From Lachnoclostridium sp. An76 (GTDB lineage: Bacteria; Bacillota; Clostridia; Lachnospirales; Lachnospiraceae): DNA of 64,000 nucleotides. Location: NCBI RefSeq assembly GCF_002161355.1, contig NZ_NFHL01000008.1, forward strand, positions 62,001 through 126,000. The letters are read 5' to 3'. The first letter of the stretch is position 1, and each line of letters opens with the position of its first letter. Both the position numbers and the translations under genes were made by a program. The notes beneath the pieces were generated by a model, which was given only the letters and a program-made list of their open reading frames with translations, was not told where the DNA came from and made no database searches. Below, in pieces: positions 1-10,965 of this stretch.

Positions 1-579
1 CAAATACCGGTTTTATTTATTGATGATAAGAAAATCGAATTCAAAAAATTACGCGAAGTGTTCGATAGGCAAAAATATTTCCGCTTGATCAATGATACTC
101 CTATATGTGATGAAGAAAGCAGTCGTATTTATAGTCGTGATGAACAGAAGAAGAAGATCATAAAGTTGATTGAAGAAAAAAAGGATGAGTACAAAATTAT
201 TTTGTTTGATTTGTCTATGAGAAATGAGACGGATAGAACTATTTTGGCAGAAGCCCTGGATAATTTGCTATGTGTTGAAATATATGAAGAAAAAAAGGAA
301 TGGTTCAAACAAGAAGGAAAATTATTTGTGTTTGTTTCGGGTTATGAATTTCCTGCCAATAATCGTAACATACGTGATCCATTCGATGTATTACAGGAGC
401 GTTTTCCGCAGGCAAAATGCCTGAAAAAATCAACGGATCCCGAAGAATATTATGGTGGATGCGTAAGGTATGATGATGAGATGAATTCTTTGTGTGGAGG
501 AACGTTTAAAAATTGCAGGAGGGATGAGTGCTTCAATAATATTTTAAAAAAATTTGCACAAGAAAGTGGAATTATATAA
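1..579 (+). CDS. Hypothetical protein, 5'-truncated by the window edge
   Basis: The reading frame is open from base 1, so the true start lies upstream; the GTG at 58 is inside the frame and has no ribosome site. About 192 residues are visible. They are charged and mostly helical in character, with a short beta-like segment (IPVLFIDD) at the visible start and a Cys-containing tail (CGGTFKNCRRDEC). I recognise no family. A good ribosome site and the ATG of the DUF2971 gene follow 16 bases after the stop, so the two genes probably form one transcript. Base composition is AT-rich like the rest of the island to 7.9 kb and unlike the core genes beyond 8.3 kb, which suggests horizontal acquisition. 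Confidence 0.6.
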   Translation, partial: QIPVLFIDDKKIEFKKLREVFDRQKYFRLINDTPICDEESSRIYSRDEQKKKIIKLIEEKKDEYKIILFDLSMRNETDRTILAEALDNLLCVEIYEEKKEWFKQEGKLFVFVSGYEFPANNRNIRDPFDVLQERFPQAKCLKKSTDPEEYYGGCVRYDDEMNSLCGGTFKNCRRDECFNNILKKFAQESGII

Positions 580-595
580 GAATAGGAGGTTACAT

Positions 596-1600
596 ATGGA
601 TTATAGTAAATATATTGAGGAATATCTAATACGACCAGACTCAAAATTTCAAGGGGAAGGGAAATACTTTCATTACACTTCTTTGGAGAGTTGTATCAAT
701 ATGCTTAAACATACAGATGGAGAGTTTGAAATATGGGCGTCTCATTTGTCATTTCTAAATGATAAAGAAGAATTGATAAACGGTATGAAACTTATTGATC
801 GGAAAGTTGAAGATTTATTGTTAAGCAAGGGGGATACTTTAAGCGATTGGATAGAGGAATATCAAGAGGGAAGGATGAATGAAGATAATTTGTTAGACGA
901 TATATATGTTGTATGTTTCTGTAGTAAAAGAAGCCTCTTGAGTCAATGGAAGTATTATGGCAAAAACAGTGGAATTGCAATAGAATATAATCTTGATTTT
1001 TGTGAGTATTCAGGTTATATTGCCAGCAATATCCCTTTTAAAAATATGAATCAGGAGTATCTTCCTAATTATGTAAATAAAGTCATATATGATAATATGG
1101 AAAAACAGGAAATCATTGATGCTTTTATAAAGGAACATATTTATAAAATTTATAATTCGGATGCTGAGCAGAGCGATATAGAGAAGAAGCGATGTATTTA
1201 TAGGCAAATGGATAAATTGTATTCATTGGCTCCATTATTTAAACATGACTCTTTTCAAGAAGAAAATGAGTCTCGATTACTATTTTTCCCGCTTAGTATA
1301 AAGGGCTGTGAGACAGGAAAATTAGTAAACTACCGTAGTAGCGATGGTAAAATAGTCCCATATATGAAAATAAAAATTCGAGGACGGATGGAAGGCACAA
1401 AAAGAGAATCTGTGATTAAATCTTTAACGGTAGGGCCAGGGCAAAATCAGGACTTAATATTTGAAGCTTTAAAACATCTTGTGATAAACAAATTTCCTAA
1501 AAAAAATAGTAGATTTCAGATGATACAAAGGAAGGATTATTCGTACGTAAACGTAAATGGAATTGAAATAAGGAAAGTATCAACCCCTTTCAGAGGATAA
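596..1600 (+). CDS. DUF2971 family protein
   Basis: A 334-residue protein. The start is ATG 596, seven bases after AGGAGG; an in-frame start at 554 overlaps the previous gene and has no ribosome site. Recognisable DUF2971 features are FHYTS near residues 25-29, WASHLSFLNDKEE near 47-59 and the block CFCSK...SQWKYYG...GIAIEY near 103-127, followed by a long helical C-terminal half. The family is of unknown biochemical function and is frequently found in accessory and defence islands. Here it lies in an AT-rich island, downstream of an unknown gene and convergent with the nucleotide operon at 1882-5988. Whether it belongs functionally with that operon cannot be told; it is on the opposite strand and would be transcribed separately. 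Confidence 0.7.
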   Translation: MDYSKYIEEYLIRPDSKFQGEGKYFHYTSLESCINMLKHTDGEFEIWASHLSFLNDKEELINGMKLIDRKVEDLLLSKGDTLSDWIEEYQEGRMNEDNLLDDIYVVCFCSKRSLLSQWKYYGKNSGIAIEYNLDFCEYSGYIASNIPFKNMNQEYLPNYVNKVIYDNMEKQEIIDAFIKEHIYKIYNSDAEQSDIEKKRCIYRQMDKLYSLAPLFKHDSFQEENESRLLFFPLSIKGCETGKLVNYRSSDGKIVPYMKIKIRGRMEGTKRESVIKSLTVGPGQNQDLIFEALKHLVINKFPKKNSRFQMIQRKDYSYVNVNGIEIRKVSTPFRG

Positions 1601-1881: not shown

Positions 1882-2769
1882 TTATTTACAAAGTATTTTC
1901 CCATCTAATTTGGTTTGGAATAAATTCCAATTTTTAACTATATCCATCTCACTAATATTTCCTATTTTATATTCTACTTTCCTTTTAACACTCGCACAGG
2001 GAAAAATATCGCCATTATTTGTGACATAAATTAACCATTTCCCAGCCGGACAGGTTTGAATATTACAACCATGCCTGCAGGGTAAAATATCTATTGCTCC
2101 GGAAGCTGTTATTCGAAGTTTATTTCTTCTTTTCATAGCATTCTGTATAACATTTTTATAATTCTGTTCGGTAACGCCTATGTCTTCCCAGCACTCCTTT
2201 GCCCTTCCTTGCCTGATCAGCTTAAGTATTCTTACTTCGGTTGCTCCTATACTTTCGGCAAACTCTATGATCTTATTAAAAGAAGACATATTCCTATTTG
2301 TAACCACAGAATTAAACCTAATCTCAATTCCTACAGCTCGTAAATGACTTATCGATTCTTTAATCATTTTGTATGATCCTTGTAATCTTGTCATCCAGTC
2401 ATGTTCCTGTTCCAAATGACTGTATACAGACAAATAACATACTTTAAGACCACATTCTGCTAATTTTTCTGCATACTTTTGAGATATTGGCTTTGCCTGT
2501 CCTGAATCCGATATAATGCCGGTTGTAAATATTCCCAAACTGATGTCCGTTATCTGGGTTTGCAGATCATTGAGCATCCCGTCAAGATTTGTATATAAAA
2601 GTGGTTCTCCTCCTGTCAGAAAAACCTCTTTTTCCCCCTTTATGGCTTTTAGCAACTTAATCATATCCTGTTTAGAGTATTCCTTCTCCAACTTCAATTT
2701 CGACGCCATTGATGAACAATGTCTGCAACTTAATAAACATTGATTTATTATTTCAAAATGAATCTCCAT
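1882..2769 (-). CDS. Radical SAM protein with SPASM/twitch-type C-terminal cysteines
   Basis: A 295-residue enzyme. The radical-SAM iron-sulfur motif CxxxCxxC is at C11, C15 and C18, and the SAM-contacting GGEP motif is at residues 53-56. The C-terminal region carries further cysteines at 231, 235, 240 and 258 in a pattern (CPAGKW...GDIFPC) typical of SPASM or twitch domains that hold an auxiliary cluster. This argues against a prokaryotic viperin, which lacks such a domain, although viperins are also found beside nucleotide kinases. It is the last gene of the five-gene operon and overlaps the thymidylate kinase gene by 17 bases. The substrate is unknown; the neighbours suggest a pyrimidine nucleotide or a peptide, but this is inference. 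Confidence 0.85.
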   Translation of the reverse strand: MEIHFEIINQCLLSCRHCSSMASKLKLEKEYSKQDMIKLLKAIKGEKEVFLTGGEPLLYTNLDGMLNDLQTQITDISLGIFTTGIISDSGQAKPISQKYAEKLAECGLKVCYLSVYSHLEQEHDWMTRLQGSYKMIKESISHLRAVGIEIRFNSVVTNRNMSSFNKIIEFAESIGATEVRILKLIRQGRAKECWEDIGVTEQNYKNVIQNAMKRRNKLRITASGAIDILPCRHGCNIQTCPAGKWLIYVTNNGDIFPCASVKRKVEYKIGNISEMDIVKNWNLFQTKLDGKILCK

Positions 2770-3445
2770 TCCTATCCATCATCTTTCCATCTTCAATAAA
2801 ATATTTTTTTACTTCATTCCAAATATCCTCTGCAATTTCATCTTGAGATTTATTTCCGTCAATAATAACATAATTTTCTTCGTCCTTTAATTTTTTGAAC
2901 GCCTCTAAATACTTTTCTCTCACTTTTATCAATCTTGATTTTTTTTCAAATAATTCCTGATGGAACCTATTTTTTGCAATTCTTTCAACAGCAGTGTCCG
3001 GATCCACATCAATAAAAATGGTAATTGTTGGCTGTAATATCTCTTTACTTTGTGCGTTTGCCTGAATTACCCATTCCATTGGCATATCAATACTGTGATA
3101 CGCATAAGAAGAGAAATAATATCTATCGGTAATTACTGTTGTCCCCTCCAAGATTTGCGGCAAGACTCCATCCACATCGTTTAATAAATGATCCAGTCGA
3201 TCAGCAACAAACAGTCCAGCAATTACTCTATTATCAGTTTTTATCCTTCCGGTCATGATCTGATGAATCAATGAACCAATCGGCGAGTCTGTTGGCTCCA
3301 TTGTCGTGTAACAATAAATTCCCAGATTTCTTAATTTATTTGATAATAATTGAATCTGAGTACTTTTTCCGCTTCCATCAATTCCTTCAAAAGCAATAAA
3401 TTTTCCCTTTTTAACCTTCTGCCTCTTTTGTTCCCTGTTTTTCAT
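2753..3445 (-). CDS. Thymidylate kinase family protein (dTMP kinase-like)
   Basis: A 230-residue P-loop kinase. It has GIDGSGKST (residues 21-29), EPTDSPIGSLI (50-60), an ADR motif (81-83) and the DRYYFSSYAYH block (107-117), all hallmarks of dTMP kinase; the EPTD form is more like archaeal-type Tmk than the TREPGG form usual in core bacterial Tmk. The family phosphorylates dTMP to dTDP. It overlaps the MazG-like gene upstream by 35 bases and the radical-SAM gene downstream by 17, so translation is probably coupled. As an accessory copy in an island it is unlikely to be the cell's essential tmk, and it may act on an altered pyrimidine nucleotide (inference). Confidence 0.85.
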   Translation of the reverse strand: MKNREQKRQKVKKGKFIAFEGIDGSGKSTQIQLLSNKLRNLGIYCYTTMEPTDSPIGSLIHQIMTGRIKTDNRVIAGLFVADRLDHLLNDVDGVLPQILEGTTVITDRYYFSSYAYHSIDMPMEWVIQANAQSKEILQPTITIFIDVDPDTAVERIAKNRFHQELFEKKSRLIKVREKYLEAFKKLKDEENYVIIDGNKSQDEIAEDIWNEVKKYFIEDGKMMDRNGDSF

Positions 3446-3773
3446 AATTTAAAAACCTTTCTCGATTTTTTCCCATCTTTGCCATATATGCTTTTTCCAA
3501 ATCTATATCTAATTGATAAGATAGTTTCATAAGATAGATAAAGACATCTGCCAATTCCTCTTGTATATCTGATTTCCTTTCGCTTAGTTTAAAATCTCCT
3601 CTTACAATTTTCTTTACAATATTAGCAACTTCACCTACTTCCCCAGTTAAAGAAACTAGTAAAAATTCCAGCATTTCGATATTAGAATCGGTAACTTTGC
3701 TGTCCCATTTAAAGTTGCCTCGATGCTTACCGTCAAATTCTTTTTGTAATTCTATTAATTCTTGTAAAGTCAT
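3411..3773 (-). CDS. MazG-like nucleotide pyrophosphohydrolase
   Basis: A 120-residue all-alpha protein. It shows the MazG metal-binding pattern GEVGE at residues 44-48 and EELAD at 72-76, followed by a helix ending KMGKNRERF. Members hydrolyse (d)NTPs to (d)NMP and pyrophosphate, with specificity varying by subgroup. Its ATG overlaps the stop of the phosphoesterase gene as ATGA, and its own end overlaps the thymidylate kinase start by 35 bases. In this setting it could supply a nucleoside monophosphate for the kinase, or remove a particular triphosphate. Substrate unknown. Confidence 0.85.
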   Translation of the reverse strand: MTLQELIELQKEFDGKHRGNFKWDSKVTDSNIEMLEFLLVSLTGEVGEVANIVKKIVRGDFKLSERKSDIQEELADVFIYLMKLSYQLDIDLEKAYMAKMGKNRERFLNYEKQGTKEAEG

Positions 3774-5608
3774 GAAACTTCCACCTCTTCAAGCTCATTT
3801 ATACTATTTATTATTGTTTCTAATAAATTATCTATATTTTCTGCATAAGATTTTTCTATATCGCTTTGAATCGACATAGTTTTATGTATTTTATCCAGTT
3901 CTTCATATACATCTAAAACTTGTTTTAAAAGTCCAATAAGCTCTTCGCTATATATTTCTTTTTCACCACTCTTTTTCATTGCTTTATTAGATGCTTTCAT
4001 TGCTTTGTAAATAATCTCAAGCCCTTTCGTTTTTATAACGGTTTCCTGCCCATCTCTTTTTTCTTTAATCAACTGCGACAACTTCAAGAAATCCTTATAG
4101 TTTACAGCTGTGATAAGATCTGTTGAATCCATCACATCAATTTCTGACTTTAAAAAACAATGAAACTTATCTATCTTTTGTACTCTAAATGCCGATATTA
4201 CAATTTCCACATTTTCAAATGTAATACCATTGTCTATTAATTTCTTCAATAAATAATCTATTTCACAAATATTTATTTTTAAAAACTGTTTTGCCTCTAA
4301 TGCACGCAAGTGCATATGAACAATCAATTTTGTTTCGTGTTTTCCAAATTGAATCGATGCAAGTGATGGCAAATAATTCTTATCATCCAATGACTTCATT
4401 ATATTTTCCATATTATATGTCGGCAATACTATTCGATTACTTGTGGGTTTTTTCTTCAATGCCTCAACGACATAGTCTATTCCACTCGTTTCTCCCATTT
4501 TATAATAAGAGCCATGATTAAAATATAACTCATCTGGCACCTCATCGGCTTGCCACAACTTGCCCAAATCAAAATATGACCATTCCTTATCTCCTATTTT
4601 CAGTTTATCTTCATAGAAAAATTTTTCTAAATCCTCAGCAAATTCTCTATATGTGGTTTTAAGTTCCATTCGCATATTATAAATTGGTGTCATCACATTC
4701 AATGTATCCATCAATTTCCGATATGCTTTTGAGAAGGTATTGCCTGAAAAAATATTACTTATTTCACAATTGTTCAAATCTTTTATATCCCACGGATCAT
4801 TGCCTCCGTCTGCAATATATCTGCAATTTAAAATCTTTAGAAAAATATTATTCTTTAACTCAATAATATTAAATTGGGAATTCACGTTCGGATTATTTCT
4901 ACTCAACAGTGCACCGGTTCCAATAATTTTACACTGATTTTGTCCTAAGCTTAAAATCTCTCTGCCGTGAATATGTCCATGCAAAACACCTATTACATCA
5001 AATTTGTCAATCAAATTAACTAACTTTGCTGCATTTCTAATAGGTGAACTATCCTCCTCAAACATGCTCATAACCGTATGATGCAGAACAATTATCTTTT
5101 TATTATCCTGTCCTAAATTTATTAATTCTTGTTCAAGCGCATCAAAGTCAATACATCCTTTTTCATACTGATCCCCTTCACAAGAATTCACAAAAATAAT
5201 TTTAGTTTCCAAGCCCTCAATTTTAACCGAATAACACTTTCTTAATTTTGTTTTAGAAGGATGCGTATCATCTACTTTTGATATAAACTCCCACAAATCA
5301 TCTATATGCGTTGCATCATGATTACCGGGACAACATTTTATAATAACATTATATTCATTTTCAAGCCCATTCTTAAAATCATTAATCAGATTTTCGGCTT
5401 TCTCATATCTTTTTTTTGTTTCTTCGCTCGAACCTGCTAACACTTTTTCACTGTCTATAATATCCCCACATAAACATATTAGAATTGTTTCATTTGAAGG
5501 AATCTGATTTTTTATTAACTCTACACTTTTCAAAAAAAGAGCTTTTTCTTCTGGCATTGTCCGTGAAGACGAACCTATGTGTAAATCTGCCATTTGTACA
5601 ATATACAT
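3770..5608 (-). CDS. Calcineurin-like metallophosphoesterase fused to a thymidylate-synthase-like domain
   Basis: A 612-residue two-part protein. Residues 1-260 hold a complete metallophosphoesterase site: DLH (8-10), GDIID (48-52), GNHD (95-98), HH (176-177) and GHIH (211-214). Residues about 300-490 resemble thymidylate synthase in order and spacing: a KKKPTSNRIV segment (385-394), LPSLASIQF (413-421) where TS has LPPCHALCQF, then HMHLRALEAKQFLKIN (431-446) where TS has YQRSxDxxLGxPFN. The TS nucleophile cysteine is absent. Residues 500-612 are helical, probably coiled coil. The start is ATG 5608, behind AGGGGGAAAA and 5 bases after the ParB-like stop. The phosphoesterase call is firm; the TS-like call is my reading by eye and moderately certain. 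Confidence 0.8.
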   Translation of the reverse strand: MYIVQMADLHIGSSSRTMPEEKALFLKSVELIKNQIPSNETILICLCGDIIDSEKVLAGSSEETKKRYEKAENLINDFKNGLENEYNVIIKCCPGNHDATHIDDLWEFISKVDDTHPSKTKLRKCYSVKIEGLETKIIFVNSCEGDQYEKGCIDFDALEQELINLGQDNKKIIVLHHTVMSMFEEDSSPIRNAAKLVNLIDKFDVIGVLHGHIHGREILSLGQNQCKIIGTGALLSRNNPNVNSQFNIIELKNNIFLKILNCRYIADGGNDPWDIKDLNNCEISNIFSGNTFSKAYRKLMDTLNVMTPIYNMRMELKTTYREFAEDLEKFFYEDKLKIGDKEWSYFDLGKLWQADEVPDELYFNHGSYYKMGETSGIDYVVEALKKKPTSNRIVLPTYNMENIMKSLDDKNYLPSLASIQFGKHETKLIVHMHLRALEAKQFLKINICEIDYLLKKLIDNGITFENVEIVISAFRVQKIDKFHCFLKSEIDVMDSTDLITAVNYKDFLKLSQLIKEKRDGQETVIKTKGLEIIYKAMKASNKAMKKSGEKEIYSEELIGLLKQVLDVYEELDKIHKTMSIQSDIEKSYAENIDNLLETIINSINELEEVEVS

Positions 5609-5613
5609 ACTGA

Positions 5614-5988
5614 TTATTTTCCCCCTTTGTAGAAAACCGGATATTCCGGATATTTAAATCCACCTAATGCTTCAAAATCATATAATGCGTTCATCCCCAC
5701 TGTTTTCAGTTGTTCTTCAATCCCCTCTTCAGAAAGCCAACTATTTTGTTGTTCCAATGGTATTATCTCAACATCAACTTGTAATTTCCCAACCATATTT
5801 GCTGCAATCATTTCATAATTTCCATTCCAAATAAAATAATATCCTCCAAATTCAATAACTTGAATTAATGGCATATCTACTCCGTTTTTTATCTCATATA
5901 CAACCTTCTGTAAAGTATCTGGATTAATTGATGCAATTGTTGTCATAGGATAAAGAACGTTAGGGCTTACACTTTTTATTTCATTCAT
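5614..5988 (-). CDS. Small ParB/sulfiredoxin-like protein with a degenerate motif
   Basis: A 124-residue protein, first gene of the five-gene operon. Two ATGs are in frame (5994 and 5988); AGAGGA sits directly against the first but six bases before the second, so 5988 is preferred. Residues 39-68 follow the ParB-N/Srx pattern: MPLIQVIEFGGYYFIWNGN followed by YEMIAANMVGK, resembling P-I-x-V...Y-x-I-x-DG-x-x-R-x-x-AA-x-x-x-G. The acidic/basic residues of the usual DGxHR nucleotide-binding box are replaced by NGNYE, so NTP binding may be lost or changed. The coding ends 5 bases before the phosphoesterase ATG. It could be a regulator or adaptor; the family call is moderate. Confidence 0.55.
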   Translation of the reverse strand: MNEIKSVSPNVLYPMTTIASINPDTLQKVVYEIKNGVDMPLIQVIEFGGYYFIWNGNYEMIAANMVGKLQVDVEIIPLEQQNSWLSEEGIEEQLKTVGMNALYDFEALGGFKYPEYPVFYKGGK

Positions 5989-6128: not shown

Positions 6129-6376
6129 ATAACAATTGCAGCTCCTTTTTCGTAAATGTCAAATTCTTCGCTCTAAAACGCTTATAGGACGGTTAGTTTT
6201 TAGGCCGAATCACTACTTTATAGTATTTGTCTTCCTTCCTATAAGTATCGCATTGGTCAATACTTTATCACTAAGGATCATTGAAGTCTAACTGTCCGAC
6301 TTTCTCTAAGAAGAAACAAAAGCGCATCCTGATAATTCACTAACTAAGACTTCCCATACCTGAAATGGGCTTCGCT

Positions 6377-7896
6377 CCTTGAAAATTCAATATTTCAGCT
6401 GACAAAATAGTGATTTATGCCCCTATAGCCTCAGGATGGAGTGCGTTACGCAGATATTTCGGCAGTCTTGCTTCAAAATCAGCAGTAAAAGCTGTCAATT
6501 GCTCATCGCTGAGTTTTAAGATTTCCTGAAGGCTTGCCATCAAGGCATCCATTAGGATGCCAAGTGATCTATGGAAAGTAATGTCCGCCATTTCATCAAC
6601 AAGGAAAAAGAACAATTCGCCAAGCGTCCTCTGATCTTCATTTTGGCGCTGTTCCATTGCGAGTAACATGTATCTGGTAAACACGATAGCTACGTGAGCT
6701 GTCAGTGCATCATAGGATAAGCTGCGGCATTCTCCAATCAGATTCAGCATAGATTTGCAGGTCTTGAAGAAAACCTCAATCTGCCAGCGCTTTCCATAAA
6801 CACGGATAATCTCTTCTTCGGAAAGGGTCGTATCTGTACAGATAAAAGCAAGCCAGTCCTTGCGATTTGCTTTATTCCTTACGCAAACGATTTTCGCCGG
6901 AATAGGATTCTCTTTTCCTACCATGACGTCAACAGAAAGCAGATACTTTGATCTGCCACGGCGTTTTTTGTTCCTGGAATAGATCTCTTTGATATTCAGC
7001 TGTTCACCACAGTATGAATACTTGATGCGGCTGCTTTTCTTGAGCATAGCAATCACATCCATCCCCTTTGAATGGATGGCTGTGATCTGTGCCGGGTTGG
7101 AAAACCAGGAATCAAAAAGGACATAATCAGCCTTTAGTCCTGCACTGAGAGCAGTATCCAACAAGGCCATCATTGCTTCAGGTGCTTTTGTCTGGGCAAG
7201 CTTGCGCCTTTTTCCTGCAATGGTTCTGTTATCAAAGTTCTTTACCGGACCGATAATATTTGCTTCTTTTGCAGATGCTAACAGACAGCTGTTTACCGGG
7301 ATCAGTGTATTTCCGTCACTCCAGCTTAATGTAAGCATCCGAAACCCTTTTTTGAAATGCATATCGGTGTGGTCGAATACTTTTGATCCCAGTTCTGTTT
7401 TCTTGCAGCTGGTTCGACTAAAAAGGCTGTCATCAACAATGAACACATTTTTCCTGCTATCGTCCGTTAGATCTTTGAGATCATTATTGACGATATCAGC
7501 AGCCAGAAGAGAAGTAAAACGGAGCCAGTTTGTTTTTGCCGAATTTAGGAACCGATAAAAAGTGTTCTTTGAAAAATCTTCCTTAAAAGAGCCAGTTCGT
7601 TGCTGCATATACATGCTTCTTCCGACAAAAATGTTGCTGAGCTTGTAGCGGAGCAGAGAAACAGGTGAAACACCTTTTTCTTTCATCCCATTGCATTTGG
7701 CGAGAAGCTTGCCGACATGATGCCTGGAAAAAAATCTCTGAACACAATCAATTAACTCGTTCTCATCGCAATAGTTTTGTGGTATACTGGACATGGCATA
7801 AATCTCCTTTGTATAGATGGTTTTTCGTCAATTCCATTATACCAAACGGGACAGGTTTATGCCTTTTTTATTGGCTGAAATATTGAATTTTCAAGG
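6377..7896 (-). mobile_element. IS4-family insertion sequence, complete, 1520 bp
   Basis: Perfect 23-bp terminal inverted repeats lie at 6377-6399 and 7874-7896 (left end reads CCTTGAAAATTCAATATTTC). They enclose one full-length transposase gene with intact catalytic residues. I found no matching target-site duplication directly outside the repeats. Each end is followed outward by a small hairpin and a shared, imperfect inverted segment (6343-6355 and 7918-7930), so either the element is longer than the perfect repeats or it sits inside an older palindromic element. It separates the AT-rich island from the recO region. Confidence 0.85.
6415..7794 (-). CDS. IS4-family DDE transposase
   Basis: A 459-residue transposase. 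The catalytic triad is visible: D121 in FIVDDS, D228 in VLFDSWFS and E340 inside YGKRWQIEVFFKTCK, which fits the Y-x2-R-x3-E-x6-K signature of the IS4 family. Length and domain order are normal and there is no frameshift, so the element may be active. The gene fills the insertion sequence bounded at 6377 and 7896. An upstream ribosome site (AAAGGAG on the minus strand near 7808) serves the ATG. Confidence 0.9.
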   Translation of the reverse strand: MSSIPQNYCDENELIDCVQRFFSRHHVGKLLAKCNGMKEKGVSPVSLLRYKLSNIFVGRSMYMQQRTGSFKEDFSKNTFYRFLNSAKTNWLRFTSLLAADIVNNDLKDLTDDSRKNVFIVDDSLFSRTSCKKTELGSKVFDHTDMHFKKGFRMLTLSWSDGNTLIPVNSCLLASAKEANIIGPVKNFDNRTIAGKRRKLAQTKAPEAMMALLDTALSAGLKADYVLFDSWFSNPAQITAIHSKGMDVIAMLKKSSRIKYSYCGEQLNIKEIYSRNKKRRGRSKYLLSVDVMVGKENPIPAKIVCVRNKANRKDWLAFICTDTTLSEEEIIRVYGKRWQIEVFFKTCKSMLNLIGECRSLSYDALTAHVAIVFTRYMLLAMEQRQNEDQRTLGELFFFLVDEMADITFHRSLGILMDALMASLQEILKLSDEQLTAFTADFEARLPKYLRNALHPEAIGA

Positions 7897-7934
7897 TTCA
7901 ACACACCGTATTGGTGTGGGAAGTTTTAGTATAT

Positions 7935-9564: not shown

Positions 9565-10965
9565 ATGGTTGAAAAGACAATGGATAAGATCGTAGCTCTT
9601 GCTAAGTCCCGCGGATTCGTATATCCGGGTTCCGAGATCTACGGCGGGCTCGCGAATACATGGGATTATGGCAATCTCGGCGTAGAGCTGAAAAATAATG
9701 TAAAGAGAGCATGGTGGAAGAAATTCGTACAGGAGAATCCGTACAACGTTGGGGTTGACTGCGCGATCCTGATGAACCCGCAGACCTGGGTGGCTTCCGG
9801 ACATCTGGGCGGCTTCAGCGATCCGCTGATGGACTGTAAAGAATGCCATGAGCGCTTCCGCGCTGACAAACTGATCGAAGATTACTGCGAAGATAAGGGC
9901 ATTGCGCTGGACGGATCTGTGGACGGATGGTCACAGGAGCAGATGACAGCGTTTATTGAGGAGCATCAGATCCCGTGCCCGACCTGCGGCAAGCATAATT
10001 TTACAGATATCCGTCAGTTCAACCTGATGTTCAAGACATTCCAGGGCGTGACAGAGGATGCGAAGAATACTGTGTATTTAAGACCGGAGACTGCGCAGGG
10101 GATTTTTGTGAACTTTAAGAATGTGCAGCGTACATCCAGAAAGAAACTGCCTTTTGGTATCGCGCAGATCGGAAAATCCTTCCGAAACGAGATCACGCCG
10201 GGCAACTTTACATTCCGTACAAGAGAGTTTGAGCAGATGGAGTTGGAGTTCTTCTGCAAGCCGGATACAGACCTTGAGTGGTTTGATTACTGGAAGAGCT
10301 TCTGCCTGAACTGGCTGTCATCTCTCGGCCTGAAGGATGATGAGGTACGCTACCGCGACCACGATAAAGAGGAGCTTTCTTTCTACAGCAAGGCAACTAC
10401 GGACGTGGAATTCCTCTTCCCGTTCGGATGGGGCGAGCTGTGGGGTATCGCGGACCGTACAGATTATGACCTGACGCAGCATCAGAACGTATCTGGTCAG
10501 GATCTGACATATTTTGATGATGAGGTGAAAGAGAAATATATCCCGTACGTGATCGAACCGTCTCTCGGTGCGGACCGTATGGTGCTTGCGTTCCTGTGCA
10601 GCGCCTATGATGAGGAGAATATCGGTACAGAGGAAAAACCGGATATGCGTACAGTACTTCATTTCCATCCGGCGCTGGCTCCGGTGAAGATCGGCGTGCT
10701 GCCGCTCTCCAAGAAGCTGAACGAGGGCGCGGAGAAGATTTATACAGAACTGTGCAAGTATTACAACTGCGAGTTCGACGACCGCGGCAATATCGGGAAG
10801 CGCTACCGCAGGCAGGATGAGATCGGAACGCCGTTCTGCGTGACATATGACTTTGAGTCAGAAGAAGATGGGGCGGTGACTGTCCGTGACCGCGATACCA
10901 TGGAGCAGGAGAGGATCAAGATTGAAGATCTGAAAGCATATTTTGAGAAAAAATTCGAGTGGTAA
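9565..10965 (+). CDS. glyS: Glycyl-tRNA synthetase, single-chain dimeric type
   Basis: A 466-residue class II synthetase of the alpha-2 type (glyQS-like), not the alpha2-beta2 form. ATG 9565 follows GAGGA by 8 bases. It shows an early zinc-site pair (CKECH and CPTCGKH), motif 2 ([23 protein letters not shown]) and motif 3 ([13 protein letters not shown]), and ends in an anticodon-binding domain. It attaches glycine to tRNA-Gly. A glycine T-box might be expected upstream; I looked for one and could not support it. A REP-type palindrome begins 8 bases after the stop. Confidence 0.95.

Follow-up and report, generated by a model that had tools for sequence, protein, structure and literature searches.

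A candidate antiphage operon that joins a metallophosphoesterase to a thymidylate synthase relative without the catalytic cysteine

What are five closely packed genes, several of them from nucleotide-handling families, doing together in an AT-rich island of a Lachnoclostridium genome? The locus lies in a 64,000-nucleotide stretch of Lachnoclostridium sp. An76 (contig NZ_NFHL01000008.1, positions 62,001 to 126,000; below, 'the window', whose own numbering is used), where the minus strand between 1882 and 5994 encodes a small protein, a fusion of a metallophosphoesterase (MPE) with a C-terminal domain that we call X, a MazG-family pyrophosphohydrolase, a thymidylate kinase family protein (TMK) and a radical S-adenosylmethionine (SAM) enzyme. 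Our answer, offered tentatively and from sequence comparison, is that these genes may form a horizontally moved antiphage operon acting via an altered pyrimidine nucleotide, which X would sense and so gate the MPE. The parts of this answer differ in strength: a defence function is likely, and we lean towards the view that the pathway makes a modified pyrimidine nucleotide; a role for X as the sensor gating the MPE is a possibility to which we would not yet commit ourselves. More doubtful is the proposal that the operon represents a new class of nucleotide-signalling antiphage immunity, with interchangeable radical SAM and thymidylate synthase (TS) enzymes, a dead TS as reader and an MPE as effector.

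The gene order and junctions (+5, −4, −35 and −17 bases) are exactly those given by an earlier sequence-only reading of this DNA. Its description of an AT-rich island bordered by a DUF2971 gene on one side and an insertion sequence (IS) transposase on the other is borne out both by Pfam and by base composition: G+C content is 30–35% in the operon stretch and 39–54%, mostly 44–54%, in the 1-kb windows from about 8 to 16 kb. Pfam recognises Metallophos (1.4e-9), MazG (1.3e-7), Thymidylate_kin (2.4e-43) and Radical_SAM (5.9e-17) in the window proteins.

Domain X is a TS relative of an unusual kind. On the window fusion, the Pfam Thymidylat_synt model reaches 3e-4 and 20.5 bits, under its cut-off of 24.3, and X alone stays under every Pfam and NCBIfam cut-off in the proteins scanned. 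A profile built from five X sequences finds E. coli TS chains in the PDB at 6.9e-5 to 6e-4; in PHROGs, X matches TS families only (4e-4 to 0.1); and Foldseek, queried with a structure model of X (predicted local distance difference test score, pLDDT, 63), returns a TS-fold phage dCMP hydroxylase first (9iqu, 7.3e-4) and thymidylate synthases next. The catalytic cysteine of TS is replaced by serine in X of all seven loci described below. Serine also occupies this position in the two best PDB chains of the profile search, of which 1f4d is described as C146S. The histidine after the cysteine is lost, the 'RS' at R166 has become 'RA' and R126 has become Asn or Ser; the equivalents of what we take to be R127, Q151, R166 and N177 in TS numbering are kept as Arg, Gln, Arg and Asn (7/7 sequences). 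By these comparisons, X appears to have the TS fold, may still bind a pyrimidine monophosphate and should be unable to methylate it by the usual route. The window genome encodes its own ThyA elsewhere (306.5 bits).

The other half of the fusion looks catalytically intact, with the metal-site motifs D-x-H, GD, GNHD, HH and GHxH complete in 6/6 aligned homologues. The best scores of the MPEs from E. coli and from genome G145 are to the antiphage models DS9_1 and DS8, under their cut-offs. For the E. coli protein these are 91.3 bits (DS9_1_antiphage) and 65.5 bits (DS8), against 18.7 for a 3',5'-cAMP phosphodiesterase model; with DS9_1, the G145 protein scores 82.3 and the window protein 32.4 bits, the cut-off being 420. 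Judged by these profile scores, the MPE is related to the DS-8 and DS-9 metallophosphatases but stands outside their family.

The gene set is not confined to the window, so that one refuting condition named in the sequence-only reading, co-occurrence in this place alone, does not hold. Its core – MPE, X, MazG and one further enzyme, here called the modifier – recurs in the same order in six other loci, making seven separate ones in all: six from Bacillota (a phylum assignment that is partly inferred, that of the window from its named relatives) and one from E. coli, whose plasmid and chromosome copies are counted together. All five genes are found in Petralouisia muris. A Lachnospiraceae metagenome-assembled genome (MAG), whose contig begins inside the MPE so that this part is only partly visible, and genome G1142 have MPE-X, MazG, TMK and radical SAM; G1093 has MPE-X, MazG and radical SAM. 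In G145 and E. coli, MPE and X are two adjacent genes, followed by MazG and then by a radical SAM enzyme in G145 and a TS in E. coli. The modifier is thus a radical SAM enzyme in 6/7 loci and a TS in one, and TMK is present in 4/7. Across the seven, gene junctions range from −38 to +19 bases, with some start codons chosen by us. No gene is common to the flanks compared between loci, which marks the limits of the operon. A further genome, G048, was kept outside the seven: its contig breaks off once the small gene and the first part of the MPE have been read.

These loci come from several searches. The whole MPE-X protein matched in 2 of 99 relatives (the window genome and G048) and in 4 of 398 genomes of the phylum, of which the window genome and G145 were retained; of the others, G286 is, by eye, a stand-alone phosphoesterase beside a sugar-transport cluster, and the G484 match runs across a RuvA/RuvB region with an in-frame stop. 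A tblastn search of plasmids with MPE-X found two E. coli plasmids, 5 of 5426 E. coli genomes carry a near-identical operon copy on the chromosome, and a scan of genome contigs added P. muris and the MAG. With the X profile, matches numbered 3 of 391 in the class (the window genome, G1093 and G1142); of the 4 genomes searched in the class of G145 only G145 itself matched, and of the 14 in the family of G1142 only G1142 and G1093. In the window's family 5 of 348 matched, the only full match being the window's own; the other four (L018–L021, 3.5e-6 to 1.6e-4) cover the TS core only and were dropped, all of them also matching the E. coli operon TS and L018 being a stand-alone TS-like gene. No MPE-X or X relative turned up in the viral contigs or phages searched. 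The operon is rare, yet its range takes in E. coli and several families within the phylum of the window genome.

Where it occurs, its parts have diverged in correlated fashion: Pearson coefficients lie between 0.82 and 0.99 (X–radical SAM 0.97 over 15 pairs, X–MazG 0.82 over 21 pairs) and Spearman coefficients between 0.30 and 0.94 (0.73 and 0.59 for the same two comparisons). Between the window and P. muris, dN/dS runs from 0.045 (TMK) to 0.34 (the small gene), and all five genes are under purifying selection.

The nucleotide theme proposed in the sequence-only reading holds: besides the cysteine-less TS relative X, there is a cysteine-bearing TS in the E. coli operon, and the acidic residues of MazG (ExxE and EExxD) are kept in 7/7 loci. 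The MazG protein scores 32.2 bits against a Pfam cut-off of 22, and its nearest solved relatives are dCTP pyrophosphatases (dCTP pyrophosphatase 1). Relatives occur in seven viral contigs, and a plasmid search with the E. coli MazG found two E. coli plasmids and one Priestia plasmid (34.5% identity). One of the viral contigs, L043, encodes a MazG that is 40% identical over the matched part, together with genes that by eye resemble QueD, QueE and FolE.

The modifier slot holds two kinds of enzyme. In six of six cases, the radical SAM enzyme conserves, beyond CxxxCxxC, four further cysteines, so that it likely carries one auxiliary cluster. The SPASM-type tail attributed to it earlier is marginal: the window protein scores 22.2 bits against a cut-off of 21.5, and the SPASM model matches none of the three homologues scanned. 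A profile of the enzyme finds SkfB, PqqE, cytosylglucuronate decarboxylase and MoaA, among others, and four other radical SAM matches fall between 2.3e-37 and 5.8e-36; its relatives occur in 16 viral contigs and, at 2e-6, in two phage records, with no plasmid match at 1e-15. The fourth gene of the E. coli operon encodes a TS (Pfam 110.4 bits against 24.3) that keeps the catalytic cysteine in a PC motif and is nearest in the PDB to CMP 5-hydroxymethylase (5.8e-22), presumably the enzyme named MilA. At 1e-20 it matches 408 of 50,697 phage records, none of them covering 80% of the query; the best is Pseudomonas phage PaMx11 (39.8% over 69% of the query), and the phage TS-family proteins in the 15 matches listed of the 408 are 37–42% identical to it. 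PaMx11-like and ViI-like phages make hypermodified thymidine via a dUMP hydroxymethylase. The exchange of a radical SAM enzyme for a hydroxymethylase-like TS at one place in the operon suggests that both have the same task, namely changing a pyrimidine nucleotide.

As for the kinase, the operon TMK is the sole PF02223 match in the window genome and the only one over the cut-off in 58 genomes of the genus (G045 reaches 20.2 bits, under it), which argues that it is not a displaced housekeeping gene. The 58 genomes of this genus probably phosphorylate dTMP with another kinase. The P. muris and MAG genomes likewise have the operon TMK only, and G145 has its own TMK (181 bits) with none in the operon. 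An explanation by which the operon carries a TMK only where the host has none fits in part and is not relied on, as G1142 has both its own and an operon TMK, and G1093, with no TMK in the operon, has a weaker homologue (57 bits). No phage record matches the G1142 TMK at 1e-20.

Independent support for the phage-defence idea, which the earlier reading had put forward only as possible, comes from the likeness of the MPE to antiphage metallophosphatases, under their cut-offs, and from the company that the operon keeps: four of the seven loci (a raw count, without a matched control set) adjoin known or candidate defence genes. In G1142 the operon lies inside a Wadjet III locus (L065:277-16766), with JetB on one side and JetC on the other, in the order JetD, JetA, JetB, an AbiLi-like ATPase, the operon, an AAA ATPase and JetC. 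In G1093 it adjoins a type III-like methyltransferase (MTase_III, 2.8e-50) and a ResIII protein, over the Pfam cut-off; in G145 it is preceded by TrlF (387.9 bits, cut-off 350) and PDC-M02B (504 bits); and in E. coli a broken Avs2, in two pieces, and a gene for a PDC-S50 protein (264.5 bits) come after it. Around the window operon are the DUF2971 gene and a gene for a 2029-amino-acid protein, around that of P. muris an integrase-like gene and one for a helix-turn-helix protein; the latter protein alone, of the window and P. muris neighbours scanned, matches PADLOC regulator models.

The operon is accompanied by traces of mobility. A second IS copy, 100% identical and in the same orientation, lies about 18.6 kb from the one beside the window operon, outside the window (L003:7769-9356), so that two 1.59-kb copies bracket some 20 kb holding the operon, the DUF2971 gene and the 2029-amino-acid protein gene. 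The outer flanks of the two copies have ATATA in common, and neither copy alone has a matching pair; the bracket resembles a composite transposon, five A/T bases being weak evidence. In G1093, a direct repeat of about 228 bases brackets the operon (L064:6606-6832 and 10324-10551; 79–87% identical), one copy overlapping, by eye, the 3' end of an RNA methyltransferase-like gene. It looks like the insertion trace of a cassette.

How might such an operon work? MazG would turn a (d)NTP into its monophosphate, whose base or sugar the modifier – the radical SAM enzyme, or the hydroxymethylase-like TS in E. coli – would then alter; TMK would re-phosphorylate the product, with a host kinase standing in at loci that have no TMK. 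This order is suggested by the known reaction types of these families. X would serve as the sensor, binding the modified nucleotide or else pyrimidine nucleotides of the phage that compete with it, and would control the fused or adjacent MPE, which, once released, might hydrolyse a nucleotide or a nucleic-acid phosphodiester and so stop the infection. We infer the sensor role of X, the effector role of the MPE, the substrates and the phage phenotype.

Several points weigh against this account. The MPE scores fall far under the curated cut-offs (91.3 bits against 420 at best, 32.4 in the window); the structure model of X is of low confidence; and the radical SAM enzyme, matched best among curated models by those for heme and peptide-maturase enzymes, could have a substrate that is not a nucleotide. 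TMK has no counterpart in three loci. No PADLOC model matches the res-like protein of G1093, and no recognised defence system was found in the examined flanks of the window, P. muris and MAG loci (some neighbours scanned in the first two, the third judged by eye). The rarity of the system leaves the statistics thin, and the rank correlation between MPE and MazG, at 0.30 the lowest of all, is weak.

Among the alternatives, one keeps the pathway and changes its purpose: as in viperin defence, the modified pyrimidine triphosphate would itself be the poison that blocks phage polymerases, and MPE-X, with MazG, would restrain it in uninfected cells. Prokaryotic viperins (pVips), which make a 3'-deoxy-3',4'-didehydro nucleotide and are not known to have an auxiliary-cluster (SPASM or twitch) tail, are radical SAM enzymes sometimes accompanied by a nucleotide kinase, the same pairing that is seen here, and PADLOC matches pVip to the operon's radical SAM enzyme (55.9 bits, 1.1e-15) and VakA to its TMK (5e-11). 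However, the enzyme reaches 44.7 bits with the curated viperin model NF038283, whose cut-off is 180, and scores better with other radical SAM families, and the operon departs from viperins in its four extra conserved cysteines (6/6), in the replacement of the enzyme by a TS in E. coli and in its MPE-X-MazG core. We therefore agree with the earlier reading that the analogy is conceptual only, and regard a viperin-like poison as unlikely. An account in which X watches the phage directly – firing the MPE when it recognises pyrimidine monophosphates that TS-family enzymes of the phage have modified or made in excess, with MazG, TMK and the modifier cleaning or buffering the host pool – draws on the retention of the TS binding-site residues without the nucleophile, on the 408 phage records with relatives of the E. 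coli operon TS, and on the analogous sensing predicted, in the available text of one report, for a nucleotide kinase domain of DndF (PMC10853773). As it leaves unexplained why all seven loci carry a dedicated modifier and swap two enzyme families in that role, it too strikes us as improbable.

Two further accounts were weighed. A restriction-like scheme would have the operon salt host pools and DNA with a modified base, the MPE as nuclease and X as reader attacking DNA that lacks it. The enzyme logic is that of phage base-modification pathways, and the window MPE weakly matches phage exonuclease families (PHROG, 9.2e-4), yet a modification made at pool level cannot mark sites, the Pfam scan recognised no DNA-binding domain in the window genes, and the MPEs of E. 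coli and G145 lie nearer to the DS-8 and DS-9 models; we give this scheme hardly any credence. Very unlikely, if less so, is that the operon has no part in defence and is a mobile cassette for the biosynthesis of a cofactor or nucleoside compound, its place in islands being a coincidence. Three loci do lack recognised defence neighbours, and the modifiers are relatives of CMP 5-hydroxymethylase and, weakly, of cytosylglucuronate decarboxylase, both enzymes of nucleoside-antibiotic pathways; but the operons include no transporter, ligase or further tailoring gene, and four loci lie among defence genes, one of them inside a Wadjet locus.

In line with the earlier reading, no described system that combines these genes was found in Pfam, PADLOC, NCBIfam, PHROGs or the open-licence literature searched (main texts). 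The closest described systems each overlap with it in part. DS-8 and DS-9, whose metallophosphatase domain is related to the operon MPE, are validated antiphage systems in which metallophosphatase mutants lose defence; DS-8 pairs this domain with NACHT and DS-9 with a HAD phosphatase, and their descriptions, in the part of the paper available, name no TS-like domain, MazG, TMK or radical SAM enzyme (PMC13092281). Neither partner was found in the five window genes or, at four other loci, in the proteins that contain the MPE. The available text of the same paper also reports validated DefensePredictor systems that hold thymidylate synthase, dNMP kinase, 5-hydroxymethyldeoxyuridine (5-hmdU) kinase and NMAD domains (PMC13092281). 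Compared by text description only, these resemble the operon in their TS-family and nucleotide-kinase domains; that text names no MPE-X fusion or radical SAM enzyme and leaves unstated whether the domains belong to the same system. No match to 5-hmdU kinase or NMAD is listed for the operon proteins scanned, and no CBASS-type nucleotide cyclase or CD-NTase gene was found among the window genes (Pfam, PADLOC).

Phage base-modification pathways of the T4 and SPO1 kind combine a dNTPase, a TS-family hydroxymethylase and a dNMP kinase. The operon shares with them the sequence of cleaving, modifying at the monophosphate and re-phosphorylating, and its E. coli TS is related to the phage TS family; unlike them, it lies in bacterial islands, often beside defence genes, and has an MPE and a TS fold without the cysteine. 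CMP 5-hydroxymethylase, the nearest solved relative of that TS, is an antibiotic-pathway enzyme for which we know of no MPE/X/MazG operon. Nor do we know of a precedent for an immune sensor built from thymidylate synthase. Should the proposal be true, bacteria would use an inactivated TS in this capacity, and a radical SAM enzyme would be exchangeable for a TS-type hydroxymethylase in one operon slot, an exchange that would point to a common product and give a handle on which nucleotide is involved. It could also tie the validated but unexplained metallophosphatase defences DS-8 and DS-9 to a definable nucleotide.

The small first gene stands apart from this core: the window, P. muris and G048 are the only places where it was found. 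Its description as ParB-like in the sequence-only reading is not secure: no match to a ParB N-domain came from Pfam, NCBIfam, PHROGs or PDB profile searches. When compared by HH with three of the genome's six ParB_N places, the small protein aligns in register, but with P 0.028 and a probability of 1.8%, and the structure model (pLDDT 38.7) is unusable. The idea that the radical SAM enzyme modifies a peptide encoded by this gene, as in ribosomally synthesised and post-translationally modified peptides, was rejected as a general explanation because of the gene's narrow occurrence and because no gene is common to the flanks.

Table 1. Positions of the operon genes and their immediate neighbours in the window
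Feature	Position	Strand	Basis or remark
Small first gene, 126 amino acids	5614..5994	-	Second ATG gives end at 5988
MPE-X fusion: N-terminal calcineurin-like MPE and C-terminal TS-like domain X	3770..5608	-	
MPE half of the fusion	4646..5608, boundary approximate	-	Metal-site motifs
Domain X, TS relative	3770..4645	-	Profile, alignment
MazG-family nucleotide pyrophosphohydrolase	3411..3773	-	Pfam, ExxE and EExxD motifs
Thymidylate-kinase family protein (TMK)	2753..3445	-	PF02223
Radical SAM enzyme	1882..2769	-	Pfam, CxxxCxxC
DUF2971 protein, convergent neighbour	554..1600	+	No counterpart in the flanks of the other loci
Insertion sequence, transposase 6415-7794	6343..7930	-	

A promoter scan was uninformative, with 24 sites against 24.3 expected. 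The 2029-amino-acid protein (L003:13887-19976), encoded on contig C25 of the genome just upstream of the window, has a weakly HATPase-like C-terminus (E 0.078) and no PADLOC match. Within the window, a gene for 173 amino acids (58-579) overlaps the DUF2971 gene, and both converge on the operon; the DUF2971 protein bears a weak likeness to the ABC-3C middle component (0.0049).

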